From assembly GCA_029556545.1 (NCBI GenBank), contig JAKQEQ010000023.1, positions 62,001 through 126,000 on the forward strand: a DNA stretch of 64,000 nt. The letters are read 5' to 3'. This DNA comes from Candidatus Hydrogenedentota bacterium (lineage in GTDB: Bacteria > Hydrogenedentota > Hydrogenedentia > Hydrogenedentales > JAGMZX01). The notes below the pieces were generated by a model. It made no database searches. It was not told the origin of the DNA and was given only the letters and a program-made list of their open reading frames with translations. Of the stretch, positions 43,123-59,822 are shown piece after piece (within the stretch, counting starts at the first letter, position 1; each line of letters starts with the position of its first letter). The translations under genes and the position numbers were made by a program.

Positions 43123-44946
<1,824 letters not shown>

Positions 44947-45030
44947 AGATTCAGACCCCGGATTTCGCCTCGCAACAACAACCTGATTGTACTCGGGAAT
45001 TGCCGTGAAAAACCAAAATCGTCCGTTGGT

Positions 45031-45060
45031 TTGACACCCGGCGGAACGCCGTGAGAAAAT
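45031..45060 (+). promoter_or_regulatory. probable promoter of PPi-type phosphofructokinase
   Basis: A perfect TTGACA at 45031, an 18-base spacer and GAAAAT at 45055. The spacer contains the palindrome CGGCGGAACGCCG (45039-45051), which could be an operator. It lies about 70 bases before the ATG at 45128. Confidence 0.45.
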
Positions 45061-45127
45061 AACGCGCCTTTTCGGCAACCCCTCATGGCCCCCCAATGTA
45101 TTTCCAGGCCCGATAAGGAGAAGTTGT

Positions 45128-46339
45128 ATGTCGGCATTACAAGGCAAGGTGTTGGTGGCCCAAGGCGGCGGTCCAACGGCGGTGATCAATCAGAGCGTGG
45201 TCGGCGTTGTCCTCGAATCCCGCAAGTATCCGCAGGCGACTCACGTTTACGGCGCGCTGCACGGCGTGCGCGGCATCAAGAACGAGGAATTCCTCGATCT
45301 GACCGAAGCGACGACGCACAACCTCGAGGCGGTGGCGCGCACACCGTCTTCGGGACTCTTGTCCACGCGCGACAAACCGGACGCCGCCTACTGCCACGAG
45401 ATCTTCGAGGTCTGCCGCAAGTATGACATTCGGTATTTCTTCTATGTCGGCGGGAACGATAGCGCGGATACCTGCAATATCGTAAACAAGGAAGCCAAGA
45501 AGGCAGGCTATGAACTGCGGGTCATTCACGTCCCGAAGACGATCGACAACGACTTGCTCGAGACGGACCACTGCCCCGGCTTCGGATCGGCGGCGAAGTT
45601 CGTGGCCCAGGCGTTCGCGGGCGTGAACCTGGACAACCGGGCCCTGCCGGGCGTCTACATCGGCGTCGTCATGGGCCGGCACGCCGGCTTTCTTACCGCA
45701 TCCTCGGTCCTGGCGAAGAAATACCCGGACGACGGCCCCCACCTCATCTATGTTCCCGAGCGGCCCCTTTCGCGCGATCAGTTCATCGCGGACGTGAAGC
45801 GGGTCTACGCCGAACACGGGCGCTGCGTCGTGGCGGCGTCCGAGGGCGTGGCGGACGCGAGCGGCAAGGCGATTGCCGAGCAATTCACCAACGGCGAGAA
45901 GGACGCGCACGGCAACGTCCAGCTTTCCGGCACCGGCGCGCTGGGCGACCTGCTGAGCCGTTGGGTGAAGGAGGACACGGAAATCGAACGCGTTCGCGCG
46001 GACACGCTCGGCTACTTGCAGCGCAGTTTCCTGGGCTGCGTGAGCGAGGTCGACCAGTCCGAGGCCCGCGAGGTCGGCGAGAAGGCCGCGCAGTATGCCA
46101 TATGGCACAACCTCGACGGGTCGGTGGCCATCCGGCGCATCGGCGACTACGCCGTCGAGTATTTCCTGACGCCCCTCGAAAGCGTCGCCCGAAAGGCCCG
46201 GTCGATGCCGGACGAGTTCATCAACGCGGACGGCAACGGCGTCACGGAAGCGTTCATCAAGTACTGCCGCCCGCTCGTGGGCGCCATGCCGGTGCTCGAG
46301 CGCATAGCGGCGCCCAGGGCGGCCAAGGTGCGGGCGTAA
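45128..46339 (+). CDS. 6-phosphofructokinase, pyrophosphate-dependent type
   Basis: 403 residues. GGNDSADT replaces the ATP-type GGDGS, and VPKTIDNDL has Lys before TIDND; both are marks of PPi-dependent enzymes. [13 protein letters not shown] and [10 protein letters not shown] follow the family order. It would catalyse the reversible conversion of fructose-6-phosphate with PPi. AAGGAG lies 7 bases before the ATG. The thioesterase gene begins 3 bases after its stop. Confidence 0.9.
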
Positions 46340-46791: not shown

Positions 46792-46842
46792 CGGCTATGT
46801 ACGGAAAGACACGAAAAGACACGGACAAATCCGCCGAACGCG

Positions 46843-46896
46843 CATGGGCATCTTGCCCATGGTTTTCAGGAACACGGGCGAGACGCCCGTGCCACG
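46843..46896. repeat. dispersed double-hairpin repeat (copy 3)
   Basis: CATGGGCATCTTGCCCATG and ACGGGCGAGACGCCCGT followed by GCCACG, the same two-hairpin order as the unit at 12651. It sits 7 bases before the helicase start. Bases 46800-46832 just upstream (ACGGAAAGACACGAAAAGAC) are a second dispersed-repeat type. Confidence 0.75.
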
Positions 46897-48235: not shown

Positions 48236-51200
48236 ATGTCCCGAGCCTGCATCTTCACGCTTGCGATGATTCCGGCAATCGCGGCGGCGACAACCGTCGA
48301 GTCGGTCATCCTCGCCGTCGAGGATCTGACCGCCGCGTTTCGGGAGCAATACGAGGAGGGACCGGCGTATCGTGATCGATTGCGCGCCATCGACCCGTCT
48401 TCGCCGGCGGGGGCCACAGCGTTCGAGGCGCTTGCGCGTGAGGCGTTGACGGCTAACCCGTTGCTGGATTTCGATGCGTTGTTAGTGATTAAACGGTCTG
48501 TAAGGCACTTGGGGCTGGTGCAGAATTGGGAAAGCAACTCGAGTCTGCCCAGGCGAGGCTTCGACAACGAAATCGCCGTACTCTCGATTGCGGGCGGCGC
48601 GGCCTCGCCGACGACGCTGTACCGGCCCTCTTCGGATGTATTTGTCGGCGACGTGGACCTCGATTTCGACGGATCGCGGCTTTTGTTCTCGATGCCGGGC
48701 GCGAACGGACGCTGGCAGGTGCATGAGATAAACGCGGACGGCTCGGAATTGCGCGAGCTGCCGCTGATAGTCGAGTCGGACGTGGACAACTACGACGCCT
48801 GTTATCTCCCCGACGGCAACCTCATCTTCAGTTCGACCGCGCCGATTGTCGGGGTGCCCTGCGTCACGGGGAGTTCCCATGTGTCGAACCTGTACCGTTG
48901 GGACCGCGCCACGGGCCATATCCGGCGGCTGACCTTCGAGCAGGACCACGATTGGTGCCCCGAGGTGCTCGAGGACGGGCGCGTTTTGTACCTGCGTTGG
49001 GAGTATTCGGATATTCCCCACTTCGTGTCGCGTATTCTGTTTTCGATGAACCCGGACGGCACGACGCAGCGCGAGTGGTACGGCAGCAACTCCTACTGGC
49101 CGAACGCGATGTTCTACGCGCGGCCCGTGCCGGGGCGTCCGACCCAATTCGTGGCGATCGTCGGCGGGCACCATGACGTGCCGCGCATGGGCGAACTGGT
49201 GTTGTTCGACACGGCGCGGGGCCGGCGCGAGGCCGACGGCGTGGTGCAGCGGATTCCGGGGCGGGGCAAGCGCGTCGAGCCGATCATCCTTGACGGCCTG
49301 GTCCAGGAATCCTGGCCGAAATTTCTGCACCCGTATCCCTTGAGCGACAAGTACTTTCTCGTGTCGGCCAAACCGACGGCGGAAGCGCTCTGGGGCATCT
49401 ATCTCGTGGATGTCTTTGACAACATGACACTGCTCAAGGAATTGGACGGCTACGCGCTGTTCGAGCCGTTCCCGCTGCGGTCCCGCCCGCGGCCGCCGAT
49501 CATCCCGCCCGCGTCGCGGCCGAACACGCAGACCGCGACCGTGTATATGCAGGACGTGTACGTGGGACCGGGCCTCGAGGGCGTGCCGCGGGGCGCGGTG
49601 AAGGCGCTGCGGCTATTCACCTATCACTTCGCCTATCACGGCATGGGCGGCCAGATAAACCGGGTCGGCCTCGACGGGCCATGGGACGTGAAGCGCATCG
49701 TGGGGACCGTGCCGGTCGAACTGGACGGCTCGGCGCTGTTCACGGTCCCGGCGAATACGCCGCTGTCGCTGCAGCCGCTTGATGACCAGGGCCAGGCGCT
49801 CCAACTGATGCGCAGTTGGATGACGGCCATGCCGGGGGAAACGCTTTCCTGCGTGGGCTGCCACGAACCGCAGAACAGCGCGCCGCCCTCAAAGCCCAGT
49901 CTCGCGGCGCGGCGCGCGCCGTCGCCTATCCGGCCCTGGTACGGGCCGACGCGCGGCTTTTCCTTCGATCGCGAGGTCCAGCCCGTGCTCGACAGGCATT
50001 GCGTCGCGTGCCACGACGGGCGCGACGGCGGCCCCGGACCTGACTTTCGCCGCGCGCCGCCGGTGCATCCGCCCGCGCCCGCGGACGCCTATCGCAAGGG
50101 TACGAAGTTCCCGCCGTCTTACCTCGCGCTCCGGCGTTACGTGCGCACGCCGACGATGGAGGGCGACATGCACCTGTTGCCACCGCTCGATTTCCACGCC
50201 AACACGACGCATCTGGTGCAGGTGCTGCGAAAGGGGCACCACGACGTCGCGCTCGACGCCGAGTCCTGGGACCGCCTCATCACGTGGATCGACCTGAACA
50301 CGCCCGCGCACGGTACGTGGCGCGAGATTGTCGGCGACGACCTGGTGCTGCCGCAGCGGGACCGGCGCCGTGAACTGCTCGCGCGCTATGCGCCCGGCGC
50401 GGACGACGACCCCGAGGAAATCCCGGCGGCGGAATCGGAGGTAGCGCGTGACGCAGGCGTCCCAAACTCCCTCTCCCCGAGGGAGAGGGGCGGGGTGAGG
50501 GTTGATAGAGACATGATGAACCTCGGGCCGCCCCCCGCGATAATGCATGCCGCCTCCGTGATTCACGATCATGGGCAAGATGCCCATGCCACGGGTCTCC
50601 GCGAGATCAGCCTCGGCGACGGCGTGACCATGACGCTGCGCCGAATTCCGGCGGGCGCGTTCGTAATGGGAAACGACGAGGGGCACGCGGATGAACGCCC
50701 CGCGCGCGTTGTCGAGATCGGCGCGCCGTTCTGGATGGGCGCCTGCGAAGTAACCAACGCCCAGTATGCCCGCTTCGACCCCGCGCACGACAGCCGGCTC
50801 GAAAACGGGGATTTCCTCCAGTTCAGCGTCGAGGAACGAGGCTATCCCCTGAATGCGCCGGAGCAGCCGGCGGCGCGCGTCAGTTGGCGCGATGCGATGG
50901 CGTTCTGCGACTGGTTGAACGCCTTGACCGGAGACGACTTCACGCTGCCCACGGAGGCGGAGTGGGAATATGCCTGTCGCGCGGGTACGGACACGCCGCT
51001 CTACTTCGGCGACTGCGACGCGAATTTCGCCGCCCATGCGAACCTCGCGGACAGGTCGCTCGCGCGGGTGGACCTGTTCGCGGCCTGGGGCCTGCCTTTC
51101 GGGGCGATACACCCGTGGCGGCCCGCCGTAAACAAGGTCGACGACGGATACCGCGTCTCCGCGCCCGTCGGGCGTCTTGCGCCCAATGCCTGGGGTCTTT

Positions 51201-51427
51201 ACGACATGCACGGCAATGTGGCGGAGTGGACAAGCTCGGACTACGAACACAACGGCGTGGGGAACTTGAAAGCGGTGCGGGGCGGCTCCTGGTATGACCG
51301 GCCCGAACGCGCGACTGCCGCGTATCGGCTCGGCTATGCGCCGTGGCAGCGGGTCTACAACGTCGGATTCCGCGTGGTCTGCCGGGGGCGTGCAACGGTC
51401 GCGGTTCGACACGAACAAGTAAAATAG
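48236..51427 (+). CDS. HzsA-related di-haem protein fused to SUMF1/FGE domain (first copy)
   Basis: 1063 residues from ATG 48236 (GTG 48212 is an alternative). Signal peptide MSRACIFTLAMIPAIAAA. The body has PD40/propeller-like blades (GDVDLDFDGSRLLFSMPG, DVDNYDACYLPDGNL, NSYWPNAMFYARPVPG) known from HzsA-related planctomycete proteins, and two haem c motifs: CVGCH at residue 539 and CVACH at 589. From about 790 a SUMF1/formylglycine-generating-type domain follows (PAGAFVMGNDEGHADERPAR, LPTEAEWEYACRAGT, MHGNVAEWTS, GGSWYDRPERA). The linker 740-785 is made of two dispersed repeats read in frame. 68 bases before the second copy. Periplasmic electron transfer is likely; substrate unknown. Confidence 0.85.
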   Translation: MSRACIFTLAMIPAIAAATTVESVILAVEDLTAAFREQYEEGPAYRDRLRAIDPSSPAGATAFEALAREALTANPLLDFDALLVIKRSVRHLGLVQNWESNSSLPRRGFDNEIAVLSIAGGAASPTTLYRPSSDVFVGDVDLDFDGSRLLFSMPGANGRWQVHEINADGSELRELPLIVESDVDNYDACYLPDGNLIFSSTAPIVGVPCVTGSSHVSNLYRWDRATGHIRRLTFEQDHDWCPEVLEDGRVLYLRWEYSDIPHFVSRILFSMNPDGTTQREWYGSNSYWPNAMFYARPVPGRPTQFVAIVGGHHDVPRMGELVLFDTARGRREADGVVQRIPGRGKRVEPIILDGLVQESWPKFLHPYPLSDKYFLVSAKPTAEALWGIYLVDVFDNMTLLKELDGYALFEPFPLRSRPRPPIIPPASRPNTQTATVYMQDVYVGPGLEGVPRGAVKALRLFTYHFAYHGMGGQINRVGLDGPWDVKRIVGTVPVELDGSALFTVPANTPLSLQPLDDQGQALQLMRSWMTAMPGETLSCVGCHEPQNSAPPSKPSLAARRAPSPIRPWYGPTRGFSFDREVQPVLDRHCVACHDGRDGGPGPDFRRAPPVHPPAPADAYRKGTKFPPSYLALRRYVRTPTMEGDMHLLPPLDFHANTTHLVQVLRKGHHDVALDAESWDRLITWIDLNTPAHGTWREIVGDDLVLPQRDRRRELLARYAPGADDDPEEIPAAESEVARDAGVPNSLSPRERGGVRVDRDMMNLGPPPAIMHAASVIHDHGQDAHATGLREISLGDGVTMTLRRIPAGAFVMGNDEGHADERPARVVEIGAPFWMGACEVTNAQYARFDPAHDSRLENGDFLQFSVEERGYPLNAPEQPAARVSWRDAMAFCDWLNALTGDDFTLPTEAEWEYACRAGTDTPLYFGDCDANFAAHANLADRSLARVDLFAAWGLPFGAIHPWRPAVNKVDDGYRVSAPVGRLAPNAWGLYDMHGNVAEWTSSDYEHNGVGNLKAVRGGSWYDRPERATAAYRLGYAPWQRVYNVGFRVVCRGRATVAVRHEQVK
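50469..50501. repeat. dispersed hairpin repeat inside the coding region
   Basis: CCCTCTCCCCGAGGGAGAGG and the following GGCGGGGTGAGGG form a palindromic unit common as an intergenic repeat in many bacteria. Here it is translated as SLSPRERGGVRV in the linker of the first HzsA-related protein. Confidence 0.75.
50570..50593. repeat. dispersed hairpin repeat (copy 4), translated
   Basis: CATGGGCAAGATGCCCATG plus CCACG, the half-unit of the family at 12651, read in frame as HGQDAHATG inside the HzsA-related gene. It lies 69 bases after the other translated repeat. Confidence 0.8.
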
Positions 51428-51495
51428 CGCTGGGTTGTCTCTCGATGCGTCACGGTCTATCTTGGTTGCGGTCTGGAAAGCGGAGTGTGTTGACA

Positions 51496-54400
51496 ATGCC
51501 GCCTTCTCGCGTGTGTCTCACCGGCGTTCTGCTCGCCGTAATCGCTTCGAGCTTCTCCTGCGCGGACGGCCTCCATCAGGCTATCGTCACGCAGGCGGCG
51601 CTGAGCGCTGGGGCGCGCCAGAATCACCTTGAGACGATAAGGCGCCTGGACCGCGTGAGTCCGCCGGCGCTGCGCCGGGCCATCGAGGACCTCAGCCGCG
51701 ATTACCCCGACACGTATGGTCCGGTAAGCGCCCGCCTCGCCCAATTGGAGGTTATCGAAACCCGCCTCGAAGCCGTGCGCGAAGCCGTCGGGCGCGGCGA
51801 AGCGGAGGCGCTGGCGGAGGCCGAGGCGATACTCGCGTTCCAGCGCGCCGCGCTGCTCGATAATCCCTTGCTCGATTTTGATCACCTATTGATTGTGCGG
51901 CGGAGCGATCAGAGCCCCGTGCTCGGGCTGCCGCAAAACTGGCAAGGCAATTGCAGCCTGCCGCCCGGCGACTATAACAACGAGATCGCCATCATCCCGC
52001 TGCGCGGCGGGGACGACGCCGACCGGGTGGCGTATCGGCCTGCAGACGGGCGATTCCTCGGCGACGTGGACCTGCATTTCGACGCCGGAAAGATGCTGTT
52101 CTCGATGCCGGATGATCGCGGCAGGCACCAGATTTGGGAAGTGTGCGTGGACGGATCGGGACTGCGGCAAGTCACGCCGGGCGAGGAACCGGACGTCGAC
52201 AACTATGACGCCTGTTACCTGCCCGACGAGCGCATCGTCTACGGGTCCACCGCGTGTTACCACGGGATTCCCTGTGTGTTCGGCGGCGACGCGGTGGCGA
52301 ACCTCCACATCATGAACCCGGACGGGAGCGGTAGTCGCCAACTCTGCGTGGACCAGGATCACAACTGGTGCCCGACGCTGCTGCACAGCGGGCGGGTCCT
52401 GTACCTGCGGTGGGAATACGCGGACCTGCCGCACTCGAACAGCCGCATCCTGTTCCACATGAACCCGGACGGCACGGGCCAGATGGAGTATTACGGCAGC
52501 AATTCGTATTGGCCGAACGGCGTCTTCTTCGCCCGGGCCGTCCCGGACCACCCGACGATGGTCGTCGGCATCGTCACCGGGCATCATGGCGTCCGGCGTA
52601 TGGGCGAACTCGTGCTTTTCGACCCGAAACGGGGCCGGAGCGAGGCGGACGGCGTCGTGCAGCGCATCCCCGGCTATGGGCAGCCGGTCGCGCCGATTAT
52701 CCGGGACCGCCTGGTGGACGACTCGTGGCCGAAATTCCTCCATCCCTATCCGTTGAGCAGCAAGTATTTCCTGACGGCGGCGCAACCCACCCCTGAAGAC
52801 CGATGGGGCATCTATCTGGTGGACGTGTTCGACAACATGCTGCTGCTGCGTGAGGAGGCGGGGCGCGTCCTCTTCGAGCCGATCCCGCTCCGCAAGACAG
52901 CCCGCCCCCCGATCATCGCCGACCGCGTGAACACGACGCGCGACGATGCTCTCGTCTTTCTCGTGGATGTCTATCGCGGCGACGGACTCGCGGGCATCCC
53001 GCGCGGCGTCGTGAAGGCGTTGCGGGTGTACGCCTACGTCTTCAGTTATCGTGGCATGGGGGGGCTGCTGGGCATGGTTGGCATGGACGGCCCCTGGGAT
53101 GTCAGACAAATACTCGGCACCGTGCCCGTCGAGGACGATGGATCGGCCTTGTTCCGCGTGCCCGCGAATACGCCCCTCGCCGTGCAGCCGCTCGATGCCG
53201 ATGGCAAGGCGCTGCAACTCATGCGAAGCTGGTTTACGGCGATGCCGGGCGAGACCCTGTCGTGCGTGGGCTGTCACGAGCGCCAGAACATGACGCCGCC
53301 GCAAACCATGCCGCTCGCGGCGCGTCGCGCCCCGTCGGTAATTGCGCCGTGGTACGGTCCCCCGCGCGGGTTCAGCTTCGTGCGCGAGGTGCAACCCGTG
53401 CTGGATCGTCACTGCGTGTCGTGTCATGACGGGACAACGCTGCCGGACCTGCGCGGCGGCGAGATGGTCTCGGACTGGACCTCCGGCATCGCCGGCCACG
53501 CCGATCCACAGGTAGGCGGCAGATTCTCAAAGGCGTATGCGGAATTGCATCGGTACGTGCGCCGTCCCGGCATCGAGAGCGACATGCATCTTTTGTCCCC
53601 CATGGATTTTCACGCGGACACGACGGAACTTGTGCAAGTCCTCCGCAAAGCGCCTTGCGGCGCGACGCTTGATCCGGAATCCTGGGACCGCATCATCACG
53701 TGGATCGACCTCAACGCCCCGTATCATGGTTCGTGGACGGAGATGCTCGGGAAAGATCGGGTTGCGCCGGTGGCCGATCGGCGGCGCGCACTGCGAATGA
53801 AATACTGCGGCATGGACGAGGACCCCGAGACGTTGCCGCCGCTGCCGGGGCCTATCGAGGCCGCGCCGATGCGCAAGGCCGACGTCTCGGGCGCCCAGGA
53901 ACCGCCCCCGTCGCCGCCGGAATGGCCGCTGACACCCGAGGAGGCGCGCCGCCGACAAGCGGTGTCGGGCGAGACTGACCGCGTCGTGCCGCTCGGGCAG
54001 GGAGTGGACCTGCACCTGGTCTTCGTGCCGGCGGGCGCGTTCCTCCTGGGATGCCCGGACGGCGAACCGGATGCGCAGCCGGTTGCCGCCGTGAACATCG
54101 CCGATCCGTTCTGGATGAGCGTTCTCGAAATCACCAACGCACAGTACGCGCTATTCGATCCCGCCCACGACAGCCACGTCGAGTCGAAACACGGCTATCA
54201 ATTCGGCGTTCATGGCTACCCGCTCAGTGAACCGAATCAGCCGGTCGTACGCGTGTCCTGGGAACAGGCCATTGCCTTTTGCGACTGGCTCAGCAATCAG
54301 ACGGGCGAGACCTTCGACCTGCCGACGGAAGCCCAGTGGGAATATGCCTGCCGCGCGGGGTCGGCGACGTCGTTTCATTTCGGCGATGTCGAGACGGATT

Positions 54401-54858
54401 TCGCGCCGTACGCCAACTTGGGCGATGTCGAGTTGGCTCGGCTCGCGAGCAATCCCTACCTGCTGGATGAAGAGCCGCTGCAACACCCGAATCGATACGA
54501 TGACTGGGTCCCTCGGGATACCCGTTTCAGTGACGGCTCGCTCGTGTCCGCGGCGTCCGGCGAGCGCGGGCCCAATACCTGGGGGCTGCACGACATGCAC
54601 GGCAATGTCTGGGAGTGGACGCGGAGTCTATATCGCGGTTACCCTTATGAGGAGGGAGGCGGCCGGAACGCGCGAAGCGCCGAAGGACGGCGCGTGGTGC
54701 GGGGCGGCTCCTGGTATGACCGGCCCAAACGGGCGACTGCGGCGTATCGGCTCGCGTATGCGCCGTGGCAGCGGGTGTTTAACGTGGGTTTTCGGGTAAT
54801 CTGTGTCGATAAGGATGCGACGGTGCGGACCGTCACACTGCGGGGAGAAATCGAGTGA
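51496..54858 (+). CDS. HzsA-related di-haem protein fused to SUMF1/FGE domain (second copy)
   Basis: 1120 residues from ATG 51496 (ATG 51445 possible). The signal segment is CLTGVLLAVIASSFSC. A helical stretch (residues 40-130) is longer than in the first copy. The propeller-like part (NPLLDFDHLLIVRRSD, LPQNWQGNCSLPPGDYNNEI, QDHNWCPTLLHSGRVLYLRWEY) matches the first copy over most of its length. Haem motifs are CVGCH (590) and CVSCH (640). The SUMF1-type domain runs from about 836 with LPTEAQWEYACRAGS and MHGNVWEWTRS. The linker here is ordinary Pro-rich sequence with no dispersed repeats. The stop overlaps the next start. Confidence 0.86.
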   Translation: MPPSRVCLTGVLLAVIASSFSCADGLHQAIVTQAALSAGARQNHLETIRRLDRVSPPALRRAIEDLSRDYPDTYGPVSARLAQLEVIETRLEAVREAVGRGEAEALAEAEAILAFQRAALLDNPLLDFDHLLIVRRSDQSPVLGLPQNWQGNCSLPPGDYNNEIAIIPLRGGDDADRVAYRPADGRFLGDVDLHFDAGKMLFSMPDDRGRHQIWEVCVDGSGLRQVTPGEEPDVDNYDACYLPDERIVYGSTACYHGIPCVFGGDAVANLHIMNPDGSGSRQLCVDQDHNWCPTLLHSGRVLYLRWEYADLPHSNSRILFHMNPDGTGQMEYYGSNSYWPNGVFFARAVPDHPTMVVGIVTGHHGVRRMGELVLFDPKRGRSEADGVVQRIPGYGQPVAPIIRDRLVDDSWPKFLHPYPLSSKYFLTAAQPTPEDRWGIYLVDVFDNMLLLREEAGRVLFEPIPLRKTARPPIIADRVNTTRDDALVFLVDVYRGDGLAGIPRGVVKALRVYAYVFSYRGMGGLLGMVGMDGPWDVRQILGTVPVEDDGSALFRVPANTPLAVQPLDADGKALQLMRSWFTAMPGETLSCVGCHERQNMTPPQTMPLAARRAPSVIAPWYGPPRGFSFVREVQPVLDRHCVSCHDGTTLPDLRGGEMVSDWTSGIAGHADPQVGGRFSKAYAELHRYVRRPGIESDMHLLSPMDFHADTTELVQVLRKAPCGATLDPESWDRIITWIDLNAPYHGSWTEMLGKDRVAPVADRRRALRMKYCGMDEDPETLPPLPGPIEAAPMRKADVSGAQEPPPSPPEWPLTPEEARRRQAVSGETDRVVPLGQGVDLHLVFVPAGAFLLGCPDGEPDAQPVAAVNIADPFWMSVLEITNAQYALFDPAHDSHVESKHGYQFGVHGYPLSEPNQPVVRVSWEQAIAFCDWLSNQTGETFDLPTEAQWEYACRAGSATSFHFGDVETDFAPYANLGDVELARLASNPYLLDEEPLQHPNRYDDWVPRDTRFSDGSLVSAASGERGPNTWGLHDMHGNVWEWTRSLYRGYPYEEGGGRNARSAEGRRVVRGGSWYDRPKRATAAYRLAYAPWQRVFNVGFRVICVDKDATVRTVTLRGEIE

Positions 54859-56693
54859 AACACGGATGCGTTAGCGGAATCTTGCTGGTGATTATGGCCG
54901 CGTTCGGCGCGCCAGCGCAGGAAACCGCGGCGACCTATCGGTCGCCTGTGGCGATCGTGGCGGACCCGACGGGAGCGGTCTCGTATGTGGCGGAGCACAC
55001 GGGCGGCAGGGTGACGGTGTTGGTTCCTGCTTCGGGCGCCGTCACGCGGGAGATCCCGGTGCCGGCGCCGGTGAGCGGACTGGCGCTCACGCCCGACGGC
55101 GCGCGCCTCTACGTCACGTGCGGCGAAGCGGAGGGCGTCCTGGCGGTCGTAAACGTCGGTGACGGGAACGTGGATCGCACAATCGGCGTGGGCCACACGC
55201 CGACCGGCGGCGCGCCGCATCCGGACGGCAAGACGTTCTACGTGTGCAACCGATTCGACAACACTATCGGCGTGGTGGACTTGGTCGAGGGTCGCCAGAC
55301 GGCGCGCATCGACGTGGCGCGCGAGCCGGTCGCGGCGGCGATAACGCCCGACGGACAGTGGCTTGTCGTGGCGAATCATCTGCCGGCGGGGCCGTCCGAC
55401 GGCGAGTACACGGCGGCGGCGGTGTCGATCATCGACGTTGCGCGACAGGCGGAGGAGACGCGCGTTAATTTGCCGAATGGGAGCACGGGGTTGCGCGGGC
55501 TGTGCCTGTCGCCGGACGGGAAGTTCGCCTACGTGACGCATATTCTCGGGCGGTACCACCTGCCGACGACGCAATTGGAACGGGGGTGGATGAACACGAA
55601 CGCGTTGAGCGTGATCGACGTGGCCGGAAAGCGGCTGGTGAACACGGTGCTGCTCGACAGCGTCGACCTCGGCGCCGCGAACCCGTGGGGCGTGGTGTGC
55701 GCGGACGGGGGCCGGTTCCTGTGCGTGGCCCACGCGGGCACGCACGAGATCAGCGTGATCGACCTGCCCGCGCTGCACGCGAAGCTGGACCGGGTAGCCG
55801 CGGGCGAGCGCGTGTCCGAGGTGTCGCGCGCGCCCGAGGACGTGCCGAACGATCTGGCGTTCCTGGTGGACCTGCGGCGGCGTATCAAGCTCGCGGGCAA
55901 CGGGCCGCGAGGCATCGCCGCCGTCGGCACAACGGTGTATGCGGCGGAATATTTCACCGACTCGATAGGGGTGGCGGCCATTGCGCCGGACTCGCGCGCA
56001 AAAGCCGCTTCGTTGCCGCTCGGACCGGAACAGTCCATCAGCGTCGTCCGCAAGGGCGAGATGTTCTTCAACGACGCGGCGCTCTGTTTCCAGCACTGGC
56101 AGAGTTGCGCGAGTTGCCACCCCGACGGCCGTGTCGACGGGCTGAATTGGGACCTGATGAACGACGGGCTCGGGAATCCCAAGAACACGAAGAACATGCT
56201 GCTCGCGCATGCTACCCCGCCCGCGATGTCGCTCGGCGTGCGGGACGCCGCCGAGACGGCCGTGCGCGCGGGTATCCGCTTCATCCAGTTCGCGGTGCGG
56301 CCCGAGGAAGACGCCGTCGCAATTGATGAATACTTGAAAGCGCTCCGGCCGGTCCCCAGTCCTCACGCACGAGACGCGGCATCCCGCGAGGCGGCGGACC
56401 GCGGCGCGAAGGTGTTCGATCGCGCGGGTTGCGCGGCATGTCATCCGGCCCCGCTCTACACGGACCTCCAACCTTACGACGTCGGCACGGCGAAGGGTAT
56501 GGACGAAGGAAGTCCCGTCGATACGCCGACGCTGATCGAGGCTTGGCGGACGGCGCCCTACCTGCACGACGGGCGCGCGGCCACGATGCTGGAGGTGCTG
56601 ACGACGTTCAATCCCAATGACCGACACGGCGCAACCTCGAATCTCACGCAAGACGAAATCGAGGATTTGGCCGCGTTTGTGTTGTCGAAGTAG
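54855..56693 (+). CDS. YVTN-type propeller fused to di-haem cytochrome c
   Basis: 612 residues, GTG start overlapping the previous stop (GTGA) with GGGGAG upstream. Signal peptide ends GAPAQ. Six or seven YVTN propeller blades follow (ARLYVTCGEAEGVLAVVNVGDG, GKTFYVCNRFDNTIGVVDL, GKFAYVTHILGRYH). Haem motifs are CASCH (residue 418) and CAACH (526) in a MauG/cytochrome c peroxidase-like domain, with SVDTPTLIEAWRTAPYLHDGRA near the end. Translational coupling with the HzsA-related gene argues for a shared complex or pathway. Confidence 0.88.
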   Translation: MKHGCVSGILLVIMAAFGAPAQETAATYRSPVAIVADPTGAVSYVAEHTGGRVTVLVPASGAVTREIPVPAPVSGLALTPDGARLYVTCGEAEGVLAVVNVGDGNVDRTIGVGHTPTGGAPHPDGKTFYVCNRFDNTIGVVDLVEGRQTARIDVAREPVAAAITPDGQWLVVANHLPAGPSDGEYTAAAVSIIDVARQAEETRVNLPNGSTGLRGLCLSPDGKFAYVTHILGRYHLPTTQLERGWMNTNALSVIDVAGKRLVNTVLLDSVDLGAANPWGVVCADGGRFLCVAHAGTHEISVIDLPALHAKLDRVAAGERVSEVSRAPEDVPNDLAFLVDLRRRIKLAGNGPRGIAAVGTTVYAAEYFTDSIGVAAIAPDSRAKAASLPLGPEQSISVVRKGEMFFNDAALCFQHWQSCASCHPDGRVDGLNWDLMNDGLGNPKNTKNMLLAHATPPAMSLGVRDAAETAVRAGIRFIQFAVRPEEDAVAIDEYLKALRPVPSPHARDAASREAADRGAKVFDRAGCAACHPAPLYTDLQPYDVGTAKGMDEGSPVDTPTLIEAWRTAPYLHDGRAATMLEVLTTFNPNDRHGATSNLTQDEIEDLAAFVLSK

Positions 56694-56738
56694 TATCGAA
56701 GGACAGGCAACGACGGTGTTCGTGAAGAGGGCGTTATC

Positions 56739-57866
56739 GTGTCGGGTATCCGGAATGTAGCGCGCGTCGCGCGGCTGACCTCGCACGCAGAGTTGTTCCT
56801 GAGCAGTGCGGCGGATGAGTCCGTCGCCCCCGAGGATTTCCTCACGGCGTTGGGCGACTCGGCGCGGGCGCTCGGCGTCGAGATCGTCGCGCTCGACGTA
56901 TTCGGCGCGCTGCCGGCGGGCGGCCTCATGAACCATGTTCGCTCGGAGTGGCCGATAACGTGGGTCGGCGAAGCGGCACGATCGGGGAAATCGAATGCTA
57001 TCACCACAGAGGCGGCCCGAAACCCGAAACCCGTTTCTGCCAGCGCCGCGCAGGTGTGGGGCGTGCGCGGGTGCGCGGTGCGCCGGATCGCGATCGAGGG
57101 CCGCGTCGTGGGCAGTGTCATCGAGGACGATGCCGCGCGCTATTGCCGCTGCGGCGGCCTGCTCCCGCGCGATATCGAGGCGTCGCCGTCCGGGCAGACC
57201 TCGCAGGTGTTCGATCGCATGGAGGCGGCGCTAGCTCAGGCGGACATGGATTTCAGCCACGTGGTGCGCACCTGGTTCTTCAACCGCGATATCACCTCGT
57301 GGTATCGCGAATTCAACGACGCGCGCGACGAATTCTTCTATGCCCGCGGCGTCTTCGACGGTATCGTGCCGGCAAGCACCGGCATGGGCGGCGAGAACAC
57401 GGCCGGCGCCGCGCTGATCGGGGGCTGCCTCGCGATTATGCCGAAAACCGACGCCGTGGCGGTGCGCCGGGTGTCTTCTCCGTTGCAGTGCCCCGCGTTC
57501 GACTACGGCAGTTCGTTCAGTCGCGCGGTCGAGATAGCCGCGCCGGACTGTCGCCGGCTGCTGGTGTCCGGCACCGCCAGCATTGCCCCGGAAGGCCACA
57601 CGCTGTATCCGGGCGACGCATCGGCGCAGATGGATCAGACCCTGCGCGTGGTCGAGGCAATCCTCGAATCGCGCGGCATGGGTTGGGAACACGCGACGCG
57701 GGCCGTCATGTATTACAAACATGCCGAGTACCTGGCGGAGTTCGCGCGACAAGCGGCGGCGTTGCCGGACCTTCCGGTAGTATATGTTCACAACGACGTA
57801 TGTCGGGACGACCTGCTGTTTGAAATGGAGTTGGACGCCATCGAGGCGAACATGGGAGACGCATAG
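56739..57866 (+). CDS. RidA/YjgF-like double-domain protein (chorismatase-type architecture)
   Basis: 375 residues, GTG start. The C-terminal half has a RidA-like pattern (LLVSGTASIAPEGHTLYPGDASAQMDQTLRVVEAIL). The middle (SQVFDRMEAALAQADMDFSHVVRTWFFNRDI) reads like a second YjgF unit, as in FkbO/Hyg5 chorismatases and their relatives. Whether it is active on chorismate or is a RidA deaminase or binding protein cannot be told. It has no signal peptide and so differs from its neighbours, and lies 45 bases after the cytochrome gene. Confidence 0.75.
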   Translation: MSGIRNVARVARLTSHAELFLSSAADESVAPEDFLTALGDSARALGVEIVALDVFGALPAGGLMNHVRSEWPITWVGEAARSGKSNAITTEAARNPKPVSASAAQVWGVRGCAVRRIAIEGRVVGSVIEDDAARYCRCGGLLPRDIEASPSGQTSQVFDRMEAALAQADMDFSHVVRTWFFNRDITSWYREFNDARDEFFYARGVFDGIVPASTGMGGENTAGAALIGGCLAIMPKTDAVAVRRVSSPLQCPAFDYGSSFSRAVEIAAPDCRRLLVSGTASIAPEGHTLYPGDASAQMDQTLRVVEAILESRGMGWEHATRAVMYYKHAEYLAEFARQAAALPDLPVVYVHNDVCRDDLLFEMELDAIEANMGDA

Positions 57867-57869
57867 GCC

Positions 57870-58772
57870 ATGAAAAAATGCTTGGTTGCGCTGGTTTTGG
57901 CCGCTTTGGCGGCGGCGTGGCCCGGGCACGGGCGACGATATGCGGTGTGGGGACAGGCGGACCCCGCGGTCTGGACGGCGAAGGAGGTCCGCGTTGTCGA
58001 AGGCTTCAACGTGCCCGAATGCGTGTTTCCGGATATTGCCGGCGGCGCGGTATACGTGTCCAATATCGACGCGGAGGAGGGCGCGTATTGGAGCAACGAC
58101 CGGAAGGGCCACATTGCGCGGCTGACCCCGGAAGGCGACGTCACGGACGCGCGTTGGCTCGACAGCGGCCCGGCCGCGCCGATCAATTCGCCGAAGGGGA
58201 TGTGCCGTCTCGGCGATTACCTGTATTTCACGGATAACACGCGGCTGATGCGCGTCTCCCTGAAGGAGTCCGGCGCCGCGCCGGAGGAGATACGGCTGCC
58301 CGAGGCGCGCATGTTGAATGACCTGGCAAGCGACGGGAAATGCGTGTACGTGTCCGATACCAGCCTGGGCCGCGCATACCGAGTGGATGAGGCGGGTCTT
58401 GCGACGCACTTTTCGGCGATTCCAAGCGTCAATGGCCTGACCTGTCACGACGGGCGCGTGTATGCCGTGAGTTGGGACGGCCACGAGGTGTATGAACTGG
58501 ACCCGGAAGGCCGGGAACCCGCGAAGCCCTTCGGCTTGGCAAAACACTTCTCGAATCTGGACGGCATCGAGGCCCTCGAAGACGGCTCGTTCCTCGTCTC
58601 CGATTTCACAGGCAACAAGGTCTGTCATATCGCCGCGGACCGGAAGACGGTCGCCACGCTCGTCGAGATCGAATCGCCCGCGGACATCGGCCTCGACCAA
58701 GGGCGCGGCCTGCTCTATGTGCCGCAGTTCATGAAGGACCGCGTAAGCATTTATCGGTTGGCACGTCAATGA
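57870..58772 (+). CDS. exported SMP-30/gluconolactonase-like propeller
   Basis: 300 residues. Signal peptide MKKCLVALVLAALAAAWPGHG. Blades such as VPECVFPDIAGGAVYVSNIDAEEG, INSPKGMCRLGDYLYFTDNTRL and VNGLTCHDGRVYAVSWDGH have the SMP-30 style. The metal-binding Asp/Asn of true lactonases are not all evident, so it may only bind. 3 bases after the RidA-like gene, last in the operon. Confidence 0.75.
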   Translation: MKKCLVALVLAALAAAWPGHGRRYAVWGQADPAVWTAKEVRVVEGFNVPECVFPDIAGGAVYVSNIDAEEGAYWSNDRKGHIARLTPEGDVTDARWLDSGPAAPINSPKGMCRLGDYLYFTDNTRLMRVSLKESGAAPEEIRLPEARMLNDLASDGKCVYVSDTSLGRAYRVDEAGLATHFSAIPSVNGLTCHDGRVYAVSWDGHEVYELDPEGREPAKPFGLAKHFSNLDGIEALEDGSFLVSDFTGNKVCHIAADRKTVATLVEIESPADIGLDQGRGLLYVPQFMKDRVSIYRLARQ

Positions 58773-59798: not shown

Positions 59799-59822
59799 CG
59801 TGGCATGGGCATCTTGCCCATG
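59799..59822. repeat. dispersed hairpin repeat (copy 5)
   Basis: CGTGGCATGGGCATCTTGCCCATG, a half-unit of the family at 12651, in the gap upstream of the vapBC-type pair. Confidence 0.75.

Follow-up and report, generated by a model that had tools for sequence, protein, structure and literature searches.

A hydrazine synthase-like operon with SUMF1-fused alpha subunits and a fused beta-gamma subunit in a Hydrogenedentota genome

A five-gene operon in a Hydrogenedentota genome (6.1 Mb assembly, 96% complete) encodes an entire hydrazine synthase (HZS)-like alpha/beta-gamma set, made up of two HzsA homologues and one fused homologue of the beta and gamma subunits. The proteins are related to HZS in sequence and fold, carry haem motifs, are encoded by linked genes and have lost HZS catalytic residues. 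We consider it probable, at roughly four chances in five, that they form a periplasmic HZS-like complex, with two SUMF1-fused alphas and a fused beta-gamma, whose chemistry is other than hydrazine synthesis. The genes lie on the + strand of the window (the whole stretch of DNA that was analysed, 64,000 nucleotides) with intergenic gaps of 68, −4, 45 and 3 bases, and the products of genes 1 to 3 contain two CXXCH motifs each, six in total. An earlier note on this DNA had given these five genes and motifs, and re-reading the window bore out their coordinates, strand and gaps; its proposal that they belong together as an exported multi-haem redox system is supported by the results below.

Gene 3 (54855..56693, 612 aa), to which the earlier note had given the label of a YVTN di-haem cytochrome, is homologous to the beta and gamma subunits of hydrazine synthase in fused form: an exported HzsB-like seven-bladed propeller is joined to an HzsC/MauG-like di-haem domain. 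Its best NCBIfam match was the HzsBC fusion model (NF052342, 8.2e-51), and it also matched HzsB (NF052340, 1.6e-33) and HzsC (NF052341, 1.4e-26). When the sequence was compared with the PDB, the N-terminal half matched HZS beta (5C2V-B, 1.6e-29) and the C-terminal half HZS gamma (5C2V-C, 1.8e-26), and a profile built from 33 beta-gamma sequences matched the same two subunits at 1.1e-52 and 2.7e-37. With this profile an archaeal surface-layer propeller outscored HZS for the beta half alone; HZS was the sole solved complex that matched both halves at that level. The family profile also found the full-length fused anammox HzsBC of the Scalindua type (4.5e-88), and for the AlphaFold model of the protein (mean pLDDT 86) the top match in the PDB was 5C2V-B (E 8.9e-27, TM 0.85 on target). 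Pfam assigned the gamma domain to the CcP/MauG fold. The statement that HzsB and HzsC are absent was thus wrong, and a lack of these subunits fails as a reason to exclude HZS, since both are present as a fusion.

We then compared residues with published roles in HZS (PMC12607021, PMC12758564) by alignment. Gamma residues gHis144, gCys165 and gAsp168, which belong to haem gammaI, were identical in 6 anammox sequences and replaced in the 115 family sequences: the gHis144 column is variable, mainly Ser, Ile, Ala or Val with no His among the residues listed, the column of gCys165, which provides the third thioether in HZS, is Gly in 112 of 115, and gAsp168 is replaced. The gamma haem I region (LCFQxWQSCASCH, 56082..56120) instead contains a Cys411 (112/115) and a Trp415 (115/115) that are specific to the family. 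At gamma haem II (CXXCH at 56430..56444), bis-His candidates were kept, with His530 (the His229 equivalent) in all 115 sequences and His591 (the equivalent of the distal His332) in 104. The CcP/MauG catalytic Trp position is not conserved in the beta-gamma family; this Trp, mostly lost in the main family, is kept in one deep-branching relative (G017; L099:9535-11349). In the beta part, the loop RYHLPTTQLERGWMNTN (55551..55601) is near-invariant across the family and occupies the position of the HZS tunnel loop, which acts as a gate to the channel linking the two active haems (PMC12607021); it contains QLERG, and in 107 of 115 sequences its Glu lined up with a Glu in the anammox loop. In the alphas, Tyr591, the proximal ligand of haem alphaI, is gone (CVGCHERQN, compared with CSGCHDGSY in anammox), and a Cys260 is found in 90 of 90 family members where anammox proteins mostly have Phe or Leu. 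The column of His772, the distal His of haem alphaII, is His in the first alpha and Cys in the second, while the sister genome, most relatives and anammox keep His; the second alpha may therefore be redox-altered.

Both alphas are exported di-haem proteins that fuse an HzsA-related body to a C-terminal SUMF1/FGE domain, as the earlier note had proposed, with Pfam matches far over the cut-offs. Alpha1 (48236..51427, 1063 aa) matched the HZS_alpha middle domain (PF18582) at 3e-32, the FGE-sulfatase (SUMF1) domain (PF03781) at 2.1e-43 and the NCBIfam hydrazine_alpha model NF052339 at 6.5e-11, and its haem motifs CVGCH and CVACH lie at 49850-49864 and 50000-50014. Alpha2 (51496..54858, 1120 aa) matched PF18582 at 1.3e-31 and PF03781 at 1.3e-42, with haem motifs at 53263-53277 and 53413-53427. 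The AlphaFold model of alpha2 (pLDDT 81) had its top PDB match in 5C2V-A (E 1e-25, TM 0.61 and 786 columns); PvdO and FGE came next, both matched by the C-terminal domain. In a tree, alpha2 was the orthologue of the alpha that adjoins beta-gamma in the sister genome, and alpha1 grouped with another alpha of the same genome, so a recent tandem duplication of alpha1 into alpha2 was not supported. Over 108 nt (51274-51381 and 54696-54803), the sequences that encode the two SUMF1 domains are 87% identical, although identity between the proteins is about 55%; this could reflect gene conversion. A 20-nt palindromic dispersed repeat (CATGGGCAAGATGCCCATG type) has three copies (46842-46861, 50569-50588 and 59803-59822), the middle one of which is read in frame within alpha1, in the linker that joins its HzsA-like body to its SUMF1 domain; this copy is adjoined by a second palindrome-like element (about 50466-50503). 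Repeats were also seen upstream of the operon, where a GDSL-like protein with EF-hand motifs (43123-45189, − strand) contains long (EG)n repeats derived from a 12-nt tandem repeat.

The SUMF1-fused alphas formed one clade (26 rows, support 100) that spans several phyla, and the fusion therefore probably arose once. Among the loci examined, members of this clade were mostly beside beta-gamma, a fraction biased by the fact that most alphas in the tree came from neighbourhoods fetched around beta-gamma; an unbiased search found many SUMF1-fused alphas away from it. Alphas that lack the SUMF1 domain also adjoin beta-gamma, and several loci have a pair of alphas, unlike in type, ahead of it. The host genome has 8 PF18582 genes and its relatives up to 21, in contrast to beta-gamma, which is nearly always a single gene per genome.

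Gene 4 (56739..57866, 375 aa) encodes a tandem Rid-fold protein (PF01042, 4.6e-16), so the earlier description of it as RidA-like was right as to the fold; however, its nearest relatives are the FkbO/Hyg5 chorismatases and not classical RidA. A profile of the gene 4 family matched Hyg5 (5AG3, 9.2e-19) and FkbO (4BPS, 7.7e-18) ahead of any RidA in the PDB. In chorismatases, Glu334 and the CH-II Cys327 have described roles (PMC7170507), and their equivalents E362 (catalytic Glu) and C355 (Hyg5-type), within the motif at 57801-57830, were invariant in 30 family sequences. Gene 4 shares with FkbO/Hyg5 the tandem Rid-like fold, the catalytic Glu, the Hyg5-type Cys and the VSGTAS motif, but differs in its N-terminus, in the replacement of the YVRR Arg pair and in its genomic context, which is new. 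Because its match to the TIGR04444 chorismatase model (2.9e-13) was well under the cut-off (49.8 compared with 325 bits), we treat the predicted chorismatase activity as a lead and not as a conclusion. The retention of chorismatase signature residues weakens the suggestion, drawn from RidA, of a reactive small-molecule product or substrate. The protein has no obvious signal peptide, and a direct role in the periplasm is therefore improbable.

Gene 5 (57870..58772) encodes an exported propeller-like protein; the SMP-30-like label given to it rests on weak evidence, as we obtained no Pfam match and a weak NCBIfam match to ScyD/ScyE. The gene 5 protein is also encoded beside the set in a few other Hydrogenedentota loci. 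In two further genomes a gene 5 homologue is fused to the N-terminus of an HzsA-like protein (L086:6709-10029, with L142 the same contig, and L089:11225-14851), and both fusion genes are next to a beta-gamma gene on the other strand.

Co-occurrence of these genes in other genomes had been set as a test that could refute the system claim, and the claim survived it. Of 68 Hydrogenedentota genomes, 40 had beta-gamma, as a single gene per genome (in a few cases split over contig ends), 40 had alpha (query alpha2, E≤1e-60) and 37 had the Rid-fold gene. Beta-gamma and alpha were both present in 37 genomes and both missing in 25, with three genomes having only the one and three only the other (Fisher p 3e-12); beta-gamma and Rid were both present in 36 and both missing in 27, with four having only beta-gamma and one only Rid (p 1e-13). 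Because genomes share ancestry, these counts are not fully independent, and we added genus-level counts, for which the p-values were 4e-8 and 4e-9. At one beta-gamma without Rid (G041), the locus ends at a contig edge. Among the fetched Hydrogenedentota neighbourhoods, 21 of 33 had an alpha no more than 300 bases upstream of beta-gamma, and 29 of the 34 testable for Rid had it no more than 350 bases downstream. A wider search gave 80 loci from Planctomycetota, Verrucomicrobiota, Lentisphaerota, Kiritimatiellota, Omnitrophota and others, partly on the same Hydrogenedentota contigs. All 80 beta-gammas had exactly two CXXCH motifs, so that motif conservation, the other such test, was also found. 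In this set alpha was directly upstream in 27 of 73 loci and Rid directly downstream in 29 of 78; Rid was often missing outside Hydrogenedentota and adjoined beta-gamma in 3 of 34 Planctomycetota loci. Across 98 distinct loci, the only widely recurring neighbours were alpha (56) and Rid (35). A sulfatase-like cluster was near 12 of the 98 loci, to which we gave no weight because sulfatases are very abundant in the phyla concerned. One Phycisphaerae MAG has a tandem of three beta-gamma genes (L177:6965-12758).

One explanation for a complete subunit set is that the operon encodes a genuine hydrazine synthase and that its host is an unrecognised anammox organism. All three subunits are represented in one operon, alpha and gamma each have two c-type haem motifs, and a similar proposal has been made for Phycisphaerae MAGs (PMC10732223). 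The set resembles anammox HzsABC (Kuenenia 5C2V; the Scalindua-type fused HzsBC) in its three-part architecture, the domain order of the fused beta-gamma, haem count, propeller loop, bis-His candidates at gamma haem II and the alpha middle domain. In contrast, its alpha is upstream of beta-gamma, there are two SUMF1-fused alphas and a chorismatase-like partner, gHis144, gCys165, gAsp168 and aTyr591 are replaced, and Cys411 and Trp415 of beta-gamma and Cys260 of alpha are specific to the family. NCBIfam equivalog models were matched far below their cut-offs (HzsBC, 173 compared with 1250 bits; HzsA, 40.8 and 58 compared with 800), and no match to PF13447 (HAO/HDH-type) was found in the 96% complete host genome, compared with 15 and 14 in two anammox control genomes. 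Because the active-site residues are replaced and HAO/HDH-type proteins are absent, we regard the set as HZS-like and not as HZS; anammox membership is rejected on the same two grounds, and true hydrazine synthesis, which was rejected for other clades by Hagglund et al. 2025 (PMC12758564), is extremely improbable here. The earlier view that neither anammox nor sulfatase maturation explains the genes is supported, the case against HZS resting on these different grounds.

It is also conceivable, though unlikely, that beta-gamma alone is a YVTN-tethered di-haem peroxidase in a generic periplasmic peroxidase or MauG-type module, with the alphas merely adjoining surface-related cytochromes. The CcP/MauG fold of gamma, the excess of alphas over beta-gamma and the frequent beta-gammas with no adjoining alpha (alpha is directly upstream in the 27 of 73 wider loci) are consistent with such a module, but the near-perfect genome-level co-occurrence of alpha with beta-gamma and the poor conservation of the CcP/MauG catalytic Trp position argue against it, as does the placement of a whole alpha clade mostly beside beta-gamma, which is partly a sampling effect. 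Less likely still, the SUMF1-fold domain could be the catalytic oxidase, with an FGE- or EgtB-like metal site acting on a peptide or small molecule and the haem parts only supplying electrons. The fold is clear, and the nearest solved relative in both sequence and structure is PvdO, a pyoverdine maturation protein; here the domain is fused to a di-haem HzsA body. However, the structural proteins GldK/PorK match the domain nearly as well, and alphas without it also adjoin beta-gamma. Where FGE has 'YMCHRSYC' the alphas have 'WYDRP', with no copper Cys pair; on the missing cysteines we reject an FGE copper enzyme, and the SUMF1-type copper site of the earlier note is unlikely. We conclude that the operon most likely encodes a conserved periplasmic multi-haem complex of HZS architecture, predicted to carry out a reaction different from that of HZS.

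HZS-like sets outside anammox that have lost key residues were published in 2023 and 2025 (PMC10732223, PMC12758564), as hzsABC-like genes in Oslofjord tunnel MAGs (PMC10732223) and as alpha/beta-gamma gene pairs of clades I-IV (Hagglund et al. 2025, PMC12758564). Like these, our set pairs an HZS_alpha protein with a fused beta-gamma encoded nearby, which has two haem motifs in its C-terminal part, and catalytic residues are replaced. It is unlike clade I: ten-haem beta-gammas of the clade I kind (eight extra N-terminal motifs) were found in Thermoguttaceae and Phycisphaerales genomes that also have the two-haem type (L185, L186), and in a beta-gamma tree the present family, with two motifs, is separate from both these and anammox. 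By published description alone clade IV is closest, as our set has no CRTAC1/FG-GAP gene and no eight extra haems. Unlike clades I-IV, alpha paralogues are expanded here beside a single beta-gamma, and the main text of PMC12758564 does not mention Hydrogenedentota, a SUMF1 fusion or a Rid/chorismatase-like partner for those clades. New here are thus the single SUMF1-fused alpha clade, the Rid-fold chorismatase-like neighbour in 29 of 34 loci, the alpha-SMP fusion elsewhere, the near-perfect phylum-wide co-occurrence and the ratio of one beta-gamma to several alphas per genome.

In the complex that we favour, the HZS scaffold is kept, with two alpha haems, a propeller whose conserved loop sits at the channel-gating place and a di-haem gamma of the CcP/MauG kind, whose entry haem is probably bis-His. 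Electrons would enter at gamma haem II and a small molecule would be activated at gamma haem I; the product would travel through the beta channel, passing the loop, and on reaching alpha haem I would react with a second substrate that alpha or its SUMF1-fold domain holds or recognises. One beta-gamma may exchange different alphas, and the many alphas away from beta-gamma, several per genome compared with one beta-gamma, suggest that some may work alone. Conceivably, an aromatic or enol-pyruvyl compound of the pathway may be provided or converted by the chorismatase-like protein. A broader and doubtful extension is that these proteins belong to a widespread, unnamed class of two-site haem enzymes that employ the channel architecture of HZS in a different bond-forming reaction, with small reactive molecules as reactants, and in which one beta-gamma activator would serve interchangeable alphas (SUMF1-fused, SMP-fused or three-haem) and the linked chorismatase-like protein would provide a chorismate-derived aromatic.

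To our knowledge, hydrazine synthase was for a long time regarded as an enzyme without relatives. An HZS-like set with altered residues, present across much of one phylum and the PVC group, provides a non-hydrazine comparison enzyme for the origin of HZS, and the family shows which residues to swap for testing what enabled anammox chemistry. Searches for anammox that use HZS markers will match such genes and must filter on residues. The linked Rid/chorismatase-like gene offers a concrete starting point for finding the substrate on which these complexes act.
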